A stretch of DNA of 64,000 bases from Candidatus Kinetoplastibacterium crithidii (ex Angomonas deanei ATCC 30255) (GTDB lineage Bacteria > Pseudomonadota > Gammaproteobacteria > Burkholderiales > Burkholderiaceae_B). The stretch lies in contig NC_019815.1 in NCBI RefSeq assembly GCF_000319225.1, positions 682,001 through 746,000 of the forward strand. The letters run 5' to 3'. Shown here piece after piece: positions 9,620 to 40,561 of the stretch. The notes under the pieces were generated by a model, which worked only from the letters and a program-made list of their open reading frames with translations, made no database searches and was not told the DNA's origin. The position numbers were made by a program, and so were the translations under genes. The stretch's first letter is position 1. Each line of letters begins with the position of its first letter.

Positions 9620-11700
9620 ATGCAAAATAATCAAGACAATGATGTGGGCGGTTATTTTTGGTTAAAAGTGGCTATTAGATCTCCTATGGGGAGTGTTTTT
9701 GAATATAAAAGTAAGGAAAAAATACTACTAGGATCAAGAGTTATAGTTCCCTTTGGTAAGAGAACTATAATAGGTGTAGTATGTGGTTATTTATTACAAC
9801 CATCTTTTGAACTATCGCAAATGAAGATGGTAATAGAAGTATTGGGTGATTTACCTCCATTTAGTAGTGATTGGTTGAGGTTAATAAAATTTACTTCAGA
9901 ATATTATCAACGATCTTTAGGTGATGTTATTTATTCTGTTATTCCTGCCCCATTAAGGAATTTTTCTGCTTACCAAGGTAAAAAAAAGTTAAGTTAAGTC
10001 CTGTTGTAAGAGCAAACTTAAAAACTACACAGTATAATTTGTCTTCAAAAGAGTCTACATATCAGCTAAATAATCAGCAACAAGAGGCTATAAATAAAAT
10101 TATTTCATTAGATGCTTTCAGGGTTGTTGTGTTACATGGTGTAACTGGCTCAGGTAAAACAGAAGTATATCTTAATAGTGCAAAATCATTTCTTAATATT
10201 GGGAAACAAATTCTATTCCTTGTTCCAGAGATAAACCTTACTCCACAATTAGAAAATGCAGTAAGATCATATTTGGATAATTTAATTAAACAAGAGGAAA
10301 TAGTTGTTATTCATAGTGGTTTGTCTATTCAAGAAAGAGTAAGATCTTGGTCTAGAATTCAAAAATCACAAGCAAGAGTTGTTTTAGGGACGCGTATGGC
10401 TATATTTGCTCCTATGAATAATCTTGGGTTAATAATTATAGATGAAGAGCATGATATATCATATAAACAGCAAAATGGACTAAAATATTCAGCTAGAGAT
10501 GTTGCTATCTGGAGAGCTAAAGATTTAAATATTCCAATAATTTTAGGTTCTGCTACTCCTTCTCTAGAAACATGGAATCATGTTAATAATAATCGTTACT
10601 TACTAATATCTCTAGATAAAAGAGTAAAGAATATAAAAATGCCTATTATAAGGTTAGTTGACACTAAAAATATATTATTCTCTAGTGTTCTAACAGATGA
10701 ACTTATAGAAGCTATAAAAGTTAGAATAAGTAAAAAAGAACAATCTTTAATATTTATTAATAGAAGAGGTTATGCTCCCGTTTTCTATTGCTATGCTTGT
10801 AATTGGATTAGCAATTGTCCTAGATGTAGCGTTTATACTGTTATACATAGCTATCCCAATAATCATTATGAACTACATTGTCATCATTGTGGTTATCATT
10901 CTCATATTCCGAAGATTTGTCCTGATTGTGGAAACCAAGATTTAAAAACTATAGGTTTTGGCACTCAGAAAATTGAAGAAACCCTTTTTTCAATTTTTCC
11001 AGAAGCTAAAATTGTTAGAATAGATTCTGATACAACAAAGAATAAGGGCAGTGTCAATTTATTGTTATCAGCTGTTCATGGAGGGGAAGTAGATATTTTA
11101 ATAGGAACACAAATGGTTACAAAAGGTCATGATTTTTCTATGGTTAGTCTTGTTGGTGTTATTAATTCTGATTCGATGTTATTTTCACAAGATTTTAGGT
11201 CGTCAGAGCGTTTATTTTCTCAATTAATGCAGGTTTCAGGAAGGGCAGGTCGTCATCTTGATGATGCTGAAGTTATTATACAAACATCTTTTACAGATCA
11301 TTTAGTATATCAGTCGTTAATTAAATATGATTACGTAGGTTTTGCCAATACTCTTTTAGAAGAAAGAAAGAAAACTTTATTACCACCTTATATTTTCCAA
11401 GCTCTTTTGACAGTTGAATCTAAAAAAATTGATATTTCAATGAGTTTTTTGGAAAAAATCAATTTTTCTATTAAGAATGATATTCTTCAAAAATTTGCAA
11501 AAAGAAATCAAATAATTTGTTATGAGCCATTGCCAGCAAGACTGGTTAAGATTTCTAATGTAGAAAGGGCTCAGTTATTAATAGAAAGTAGTGCTAGATC
11601 TACCCTATTAAGTTTTTTGAGATTATTAATACCTAATATTTCTGCTAATCAAAGTAGTAAAATTAGATGGCATTTAGAAGTTGATCCTTTGGAAATCTAG
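9620..11700 (+). CDS. priA: primosomal helicase PriA, interrupted by a frameshift at a poly(A) tract
   Basis: PriA reloads the replication machinery at stalled forks. Frame one (9620-9997) encodes the 3'-DNA-binding domain and then stops. The rest (about 9985-11700) is in the -1 frame. It has Walker A GVTGSGKT, the DEEHD box, four CxxC pairs for the zinc site (10795-10935), and the C-terminal helicase motifs including GRAGR. The shift falls on eight A residues at 9980-9987. One more A gives an uninterrupted protein of about 693 residues, close to the family norm; read as written, the frames do not join. The segment between the two domains is short, so the winged-helix part seems reduced. It could be a sequencing error, a true pseudogene, or a gene rescued by slippage. 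The stop overlaps the nnrD stop (shared CTAG). Confidence 0.9.
9980..9987 (+). other. A8 homopolymer at the priA frameshift
   Basis: Eight A residues lie where the two priA reading frames would join. Upstream codons give QGKK. Adding one A, or slipping back one base, continues as KKVKLSPVV into the helicase domain without a stop. Such tracts are known slippage sites for RNA polymerase and error sites for some sequencing chemistries. Confidence 0.85.
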
Positions 11701-38490: not shown

Positions 38491-40561
38491 TTAGCTTACT
38501 TTCATACCAGGGAAGGCTCCGCTATCTGGTTCTATGAGATAAATTTTTTTGTTATCTGTTTCTTCCTTATTGCTTGCAGCTAGAATCATTCCTTCTGAAA
38601 TGCCAAATCTCATTTTCCTTGGTTTCAGATTAGCAACAAAAATAGTTAGTTTTCCAACAAGTTCTTCAGGTTTATATGAGGACTTTATCCCTGAAAAAAC
38701 ATTTTTGCTAGGTTCATTGTTACCTATATCTAGTGTTAATTGTAGTAGTTTTTCAGAATTTTTTACTTCTTCACATTTAGTAATTTTTGCTACTCTTAGA
38801 TCTATTTTCATAAAGTCTTCTATGTTAATAGATGGGTTTTCTTGTTTGTGATCCATATTTTCAATTGTAGATTGAGTGTTTTCAAATAATTTTATAAGTT
38901 GTTCTTTTTCTGCCCGTTGCATCAGATGCTCAAATTTATTTATAGTTAATGGTAGTTCTTGGATATCAGCCCAATCAAAATCTTTTTTCATGCCAAATAG
39001 ATCAATAGATATTTTCTTAGATGTTTTAGGCAATATAGGACTTAACATTATTGATAGTGCTTTGAATCTAGCTAATGTGCAAGAGCAAATAAATTGTAAT
39101 TTTTTATAATAACTACAATTAGTATCCTCTATTTTTTTTGCAATTTCCCAAGGTTTTTCATTATCAAAACACTGATTTGTGTAATCAGCATAGGACATTA
39201 TTTCTTTAATAGCTCTGCTGTATTCACGATCTTCTAAGTTTTTTCTAACTATTTCTGTGCGCAAATATAATTCTTGTGATAGCTCTTTTTCTTTTTCGTA
39301 ATAGTTAAGTTTGCCACCAAGATATTTTGCTATTAATTGGCATGTGCGACTTGCAATGTTAATATATTTACCTATCAAATCGCTATTTATCTTTCTTATA
39401 AAATCATCAATAGTAAAGTCTATATCTTCTATTTTGGAGTTTAATTTTGATGATAGATAATATCTTAGCCATTCTGGATTTAGGCCTAATTCTAAATATA
39501 ATAATGGGGAGATTCCTGTGCCACGACTCTTGGACATTTTTTCTCCATTCACAGTGATAAAACCATGAACATTAATTTCATCAGGTGTTTTTCTTCCAGA
39601 AAATTTTAGCATAGCTGGCCAGAAAAGAGCGTGAAAGTATATTATGTCTTTGCCAATAAAATGAATTTGTTCTACATTATTATTGGGATCTAAAATCTCA
39701 TCAAAATCAATGTTACTTTTTTTACAAAATGCTTTCATAGAAGCTAAATAGCCAATAGGAGCATCTAACCAAACGTAAAAATATTTTTTTGGAAAATCTG
39801 GTATTTCTATTCCAAAATAAGGTGCATCTCTGGAAATATCCCAGTCGTTTAGATTTACATTAGAAGGATCTGATCCTAACCATTCTTGTATTTTAGAGAA
39901 GACTTGATCCTGTAATTTTTTCTTTCCTTGTTTATTCTTGCTTGTAGTCCACTCTATTAAAAAATCAACACATTCCTTGCTAGATAATTTAAAAAATAAA
40001 TGTTCAGAAGATTTGAATACTGGAGTTGCTTTTGTAAGAGAAGAATAAGGATTTATTAGCTCTGTTGGTTTATATGTAGATCCACAAGATTCACAAGAAT
40101 CGCCATATTGATCTTTAGAGTGACATTTGGGGCATTCTCCTTTTATATATCTATCAGCAAGGAACATTTTTTTTTACTGGATCATAGAATTGATTTATAC
40201 TTCGTAGTTCAATCAAATTATTTTCTTTAAGATGTTTATATATTTCTATGGCTAGTTCTTTATTTTCTTCTGAATCTGTTGAGTGCCAATAATCAAAATC
40301 TACATAAAATCCATTCAAATATAATGGTCTTTCCAATGAATAACGAGTTGTTAGTTCTCTTGGAGATATTCCTTCTGCTTCCGCTTTCAACATAATAGGT
40401 GCGCCATGAGCATCATCTGCTCCGATAAAATATACCTTGTGGCCAGACATTCTCATAGATCTTACCCATATGTCAGCTTGTATATATTCCATGATATGTC
40501 CAAGATGCAAAGAGCCGTTGGCATAAGGTAAAGCAGTGGTAACAAAGAGAGTGCGTTGCAT
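38491..40561 (-). CDS. metG: methionyl-tRNA synthetase, interrupted by a frameshift at a poly(A) tract
   Basis: Charges tRNA-Met and is normally essential. The 5' part (40561-40154) has the HLGH signature (residues 19-22) and ends early after DPVKKNVPC. The rest (frame from about 40167 to 38491) continues [15 protein letters not shown] with the zinc cysteines. KMSKS (in [12 protein letters not shown]) and the C-terminal tRNA-binding domain ([14 protein letters not shown]) follow. The break is at nine A on the coding strand (40167-40175). One A fewer joins DPVKK to MFLADRY, just as in relatives, giving about 689 residues (E. coli 677). Either slippage rescues it, the base call is wrong, or another synthetase exists elsewhere. 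The gene otherwise shows no decay. Confidence 0.93.
40167..40175 (-). other. A9 homopolymer (coding strand) at the metG frameshift
   Basis: Nine T on the plus strand are nine A in the metG message. Losing one A, or slipping forward one base, restores the frame from VKK to MFLADR without a stop. The opposite correction from priA is needed: here one base too many, there one too few. Confidence 0.85.

Follow-up and report, generated by a model that had tools for sequence, protein, structure and literature searches.

Frame break in metG and the parts of the gene

In the genome sequence of Candidatus Kinetoplastibacterium crithidii, the symbiont of Angomonas deanei, the essential gene metG, encoding methionyl-tRNA synthetase (MetRS), changes frame at a run of nine adenines, and this raises the question of whether the run belongs to the living symbiont or to the assembly. 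We examined the locus within a window of 64,000 nucleotides, which is part of a genome represented by one contig of 821,813 bp. We conclude, with a probability of roughly 0.85, that the A9 run is a one-base homopolymer overcall of 454 sequencing and that the living symbiont has an ordinary metG. Such an overcall would have added one A to a true A8 in an assembly built from 454 reads; the living symbiont would then carry A8, with metG intact and single-copy. We infer that DNA from the culture reads A8.

An earlier note on this DNA had described metG as out of frame by one base at an A9 tract, and the locus bears this description out. A T9 run on the forward strand (40167-40175), which is A9 on the metG coding strand, is the site at which the frame changes, and the two adjoining open reading frames, both on the reverse strand, overlap by 14 nt (Table 1). 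The note had also proposed that the frames would join perfectly if one A were removed. This is exactly what is found when the two pieces are compared with P0001, an unbroken 689-aa MetRS which a protein search located on an 821,930-bp contig, another assembly of the species. Residues 1-131 of P0001 are the first 131 of the upstream ORF and residues 132-689 are all 558 of the downstream ORF, with every residue identical.

We conducted profile searches with both translations. On the MetRS model NF001100, which has 676 positions, the upstream ORF covers positions 4-133 and the downstream ORF positions 134-675. The downstream ORF alone scores 646.8 bits against the NF001100 cut-off of 587, and 141 bits with TIGR00399; the Pfam domains PF09334 (MetRS catalytic) and PF01588 (tRNA-binding) are matched as well. 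By the NF001100 and TIGR00398 models the gene belongs to the bacterial MetRS family, and the catalytic, zinc and KMSKS regions and the C-terminal tRNA-binding domain are all present. Together with the residues in the ORF translations that we take to be the HLGH motif, the zinc cysteines and KMSKS, these matches uphold the claim that the synthetase motifs and the zinc site are intact. Apart from A9, no disabling change is found in metG. The dN/dS ratio relative to three relatives is 0.09-0.13 on either side of the break, and metG has therefore been maintained as one functional unit. A TIGR00398 profile search of the contig, the genome-wide check that had been suggested, detected no second metG. 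It returned the two metG pieces and six other matches of 31-61 bits; these six lie far below the cut-off of 336 bits and within other long frames, and were ruled out as a second metG.

Table 1. Location of the metG pieces, the A9 run and other broken genes in the assembly. Positions are those of the window unless given as genome positions.
Feature	Position	Strand	Description
metG upstream ORF	40154..40561	-	135 aa; MetRS N-terminal part with presumed HLGH motif; tail of 4 out-of-frame residues, then stop
metG downstream ORF	38491..40167	-	558 aa; starts at a conserved internal Met; presumed zinc cysteines and KMSKS, C-terminal tRNA-binding domain
A9 run (T9 on +)	40167..40175	-	frame-change site; most probably A8 overcalled by one base
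priA	9620..11700	+	broken beside A8 (9980-9987), after which one G of PNG-M02 is lacking
hemD	genome 447575-448400		two one-base losses relative to PNG-M02, near A runs (one A11)
hemW	genome 299369-300519		one-base loss beside A6 relative to PNG-M02
rnfB-like gene	genome 160572-161335		frame-broken relative to PNG-M02; several indels
tatD-family gene	genome 313000-313757		one T fewer than PNG-M02, after A8
tsaC/sua5	genome 774621-775620		broken at T9 run
valS	genome 253380-256245		T8 here, T7 in PNG-M02; second broken aminoacyl-tRNA synthetase gene

metG in a second assembly and in related genomes

ATCC 30255, the strain of the present assembly, is presumably the same as TCC036E; this identity does not serve as proof here, and a literature search found no paper that links the two names. 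P0001 shows that another assembly of the organism lacks the indel, at the level of the protein only, and the length of the run in that assembly is deduced from the open frame. The protein probably originates from the TCC036E symbiont, the genome of which is given as 821,930 bp in PMC8229890. According to two further reports, TCC036E was also sequenced by 454, with gaps closed by capillary reads (PMC3154472; PMC3846528), and therefore its in-frame metG does not come from an independent chemistry.

Relatives of the symbiont carry the gene in a single frame. This holds for 7/7 same-genus genomes searched, and an unbroken metG above the cut-off was detected in 39/40 relatives searched, the exception (G029) being a genome that is 68% complete. 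We compared the join codons of 24 loci, which belong to 22 of these genomes, and found the Met of the MFL.DR segment in every locus. The symbiont of the sister strain PNG-M02 has A8 at the join, in frame, and that of TCC2435 has A6; in the other relatives the longest A run within 36 bases around the join is 1-7. A run conserved across the genus was considered and ruled out, because the join codons vary and A8 is found only in PNG-M02 among the 22 genomes.

Sequencing background and other broken genes

The A. deanei symbiont genome (821,813 bp, CP003978) comes from a study that states the use of 454 pyrosequencing (PMC3616161). In two plastid genomes sequenced on the GS 20, more than 97% of 454 errors were tied to homopolymers; the runs associated with errors consisted of A/T in more than 95% of cases, and insertions made up 78.8% of the homopolymer errors (PMC1564139). 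The case of metG resembles those errors in being a one-base change in an A/T run, in occurring alongside several breaks in the same assembly, and in being absent from an assembly obtained by other methods; it differs from them in being known from the assembled sequence.

We compared this genome gene by gene with that of the PNG-M02 symbiont (G006; 816,901 bp), which was assembled from PacBio and Illumina reads (PMC8229890). The compared stretches comprise 220 kb of this genome and 231 kb of PNG-M02; they were picked around A/T runs and are thus non-random, and the valS stretch was included because valS looked broken. Out of 122 PNG-M02 proteins located in this genome, 104 have an unbroken counterpart, 11 a partial one and 7 a frame-broken one; tsaC, for which the PNG-M02 stretch was cut short, lies outside these seven. 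In the reverse direction, 123 proteins of this genome were located in PNG-M02, with 114 unbroken, 9 partial and none broken. Over these non-random stretches the assembly therefore carries an excess of homopolymer indels relative to one obtained by other methods (7/122 vs 0/123, p=0.007). Leaving out valS and the rnfB-like gene, which is an unclear case, gives 5/120 vs 0/123 (p=0.03), and within the window alone the counts are 2/51 (metG and priA) vs 0/52, which is not significant (p=0.24). Proteins of two further genomes again show metG and priA as the broken genes of the window (2/51 by G005, 2/48 by G003); priA is a second such break there. Pseudogenes have been reported for PNG-M02 (PMC8229890), yet none of its genes was broken in the 231 kb compared.

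Where genes are broken here, the differences from PNG-M02 sit at or beside A/T runs (Table 1). valS is unbroken in 7/7 same-genus genomes searched; tsaC is in frame in the same proportion (7/7) and in P0121, encoded on the 821,930-bp contig. hemD is unbroken in 6/7 of these genomes, with no match in the seventh (G004). The break in the rnfB-like gene may represent true divergence.

The earlier note had left two explanations side by side, rescue by slippage and a base-call error. Base-call error is favoured because the assembly is a 454 one, P0001 is unbroken, PNG-M02 has A8 and further breaks occur at A/T runs; slippage is the less favoured of the two. The further idea of the note, that a mixed mRNA population would tune the level of the enzyme, finds no support here. 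Several observations count against a miscall. TCC036E was likewise read by 454 (PMC3154472), and Blochmannia, sequenced by Illumina, has real slippage-prone frameshifts at a similar rate (PMC3017870). Genuine frameshifts may also be present in this group, given that PNG-M02 and TCC2435 have more annotated pseudogenes, mostly frameshifted, than TCC036E (PMC8229890). An intact hemD on the 821,930-bp contig was also looked for and not found; the protein search gave only other records, namely a 193-aa piece on the 821,813-bp contig and intact proteins of two A. ambiguus symbionts. If the breaks are errors, essential genes, of which metG, valS and tsaC are examples, are wrongly frameshifted in this assembly, and both the number of pseudogenes and the gene losses claimed for a model of organelle-like symbiosis would be affected.

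Alternative explanations

An A9 run that is real, as a fixed or a mixed tract, could be tolerated if RNA polymerase slipped on it and thereby produced full-length MetRS, as in Buchnera and Blochmannia. The symbiont is A/T-rich with long runs, the TIGR00398 search detected no substitute gene, and both pieces of metG are constrained. One indel, situated in a long A/T run, affects a gene that is otherwise intact and constrained, a likeness that the locus shares with the slippage genes of those two symbionts (PMC3017870, PMC5009743). For such runs in insect symbionts, 12-50% of transcripts are reported to be corrected (PMC5009743). In Blochmannia vafer (PMC3017870), Illumina sequencing revealed frameshifting indels in poly(A)/poly(T) tracts of 8 genes, and the genome has 153 coding poly(A) tracts of at least 9. 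The rate of breaks here is about that of Blochmannia, and therefore rate alone is not decisive.

Other observations nevertheless make slippage at metG unlikely. Insect symbiont cases are sometimes common to populations or species, whereas metG is in frame in the relatives and in the second assembly: no break was found among the 7 same-genus genomes, and P0001 is identical and unbroken, so that the frameshift is not confirmed or conserved in independent genomes. The direction of the change is also the less common one when set against the Buchnera and Blochmannia cases, since rescue of metG requires an RNA one base shorter (or two longer). For Buchnera, 151/157 insertions made in transcription were located in homopolymers, as against only 16/57 deletions, and no frame was seen to be restored (PMC5574713). 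Furthermore, several breaks of this assembly adjoin runs and do not lie within them. A literature search for slippage in Kinetoplastibacterium found no paper in the library searched. Were A9 real nonetheless, slippage rescue would be extended to an essential synthetase in a protist symbiont. A broader proposal, that all of the breaks are real, would mean that metG, valS and tsaC, and thus no fewer than three genes of translation, are simultaneously out of frame at homopolymers, with their full-length proteins made only from slipped transcripts and protein synthesis throttled by the infidelity of RNA polymerase; we regard this as improbable.

It is very improbable that metG is a split gene in which A9 is real, the second ORF has an ATG start of its own, and the enzyme is put together from two polypeptides. 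Split class I synthetases exist, the two-subunit LeuRS of Aquifex being an example, and there as here two ORFs jointly span one synthetase; the second metG ORF also has its ATG directly at the run, within the 14 nt overlap of the ORFs. Unlike the Aquifex enzyme, MetRS is split in no relative searched. Two conserved, separate ORFs with a translation start of their own are not what is found: the ATG in question is the internal Met conserved in 24/24 loci, and the words GGAG, GAGG and AGGA are absent from the 33 bases 5' of it, leaving it without a Shine-Dalgarno-like word. A conserved split gene is ruled out by the single frame in 39/40 relatives, the remaining genome being the incomplete one.

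Hosts of such symbionts can provide proteins, and no second metG was detected by TIGR00398, but a true fresh pseudogene with a real A9, its charging taken over by an imported host enzyme, is scarcely credible for a gene that has dN/dS near 0.1 on both sides and no other disabling change, and whose protein exists elsewhere in identical, unbroken form.

Long A/T runs across genomes

In order to place the metG run among others of its kind, we took a census of A/T runs of at least 9, counting a run as inside a frame when that frame had at least 100 codons. This genome has 55 such runs: 45 lie inside an open frame, 3 coincide with the breaks in metG, hemD and tsaC, and 7 are at edges or between genes. 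Since only 3/55 runs are at a break and 45 are in an open frame, breaks at runs are a small set and not the typical state. Among the runs listed for PNG-M02, taken up to 561 kb of a listing that reaches about 655 kb, 57 of 67 are in frame, none is at a break and 10 are elsewhere. By the run census alone, breaks are not significantly more frequent here than among those listed runs (3/48 vs 0/57, p=0.09).

The second 454 genome, that of the S. culicis symbiont (G002; 820,037 bp), is from the same study (PMC3616161) and has 59 runs, with 48 in frame, 2 at a break and 9 elsewhere. Pooling the two 454 genomes gives 5/98 vs 0/57 among the runs listed for PNG-M02, which is again not significant (p=0.16). 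The two breaks in the S. culicis symbiont, called from frame layout only, concern an LptB-like and an M61-peptidase-like frame; each of them stops at a T9 run and is succeeded by another frame in the same orientation.
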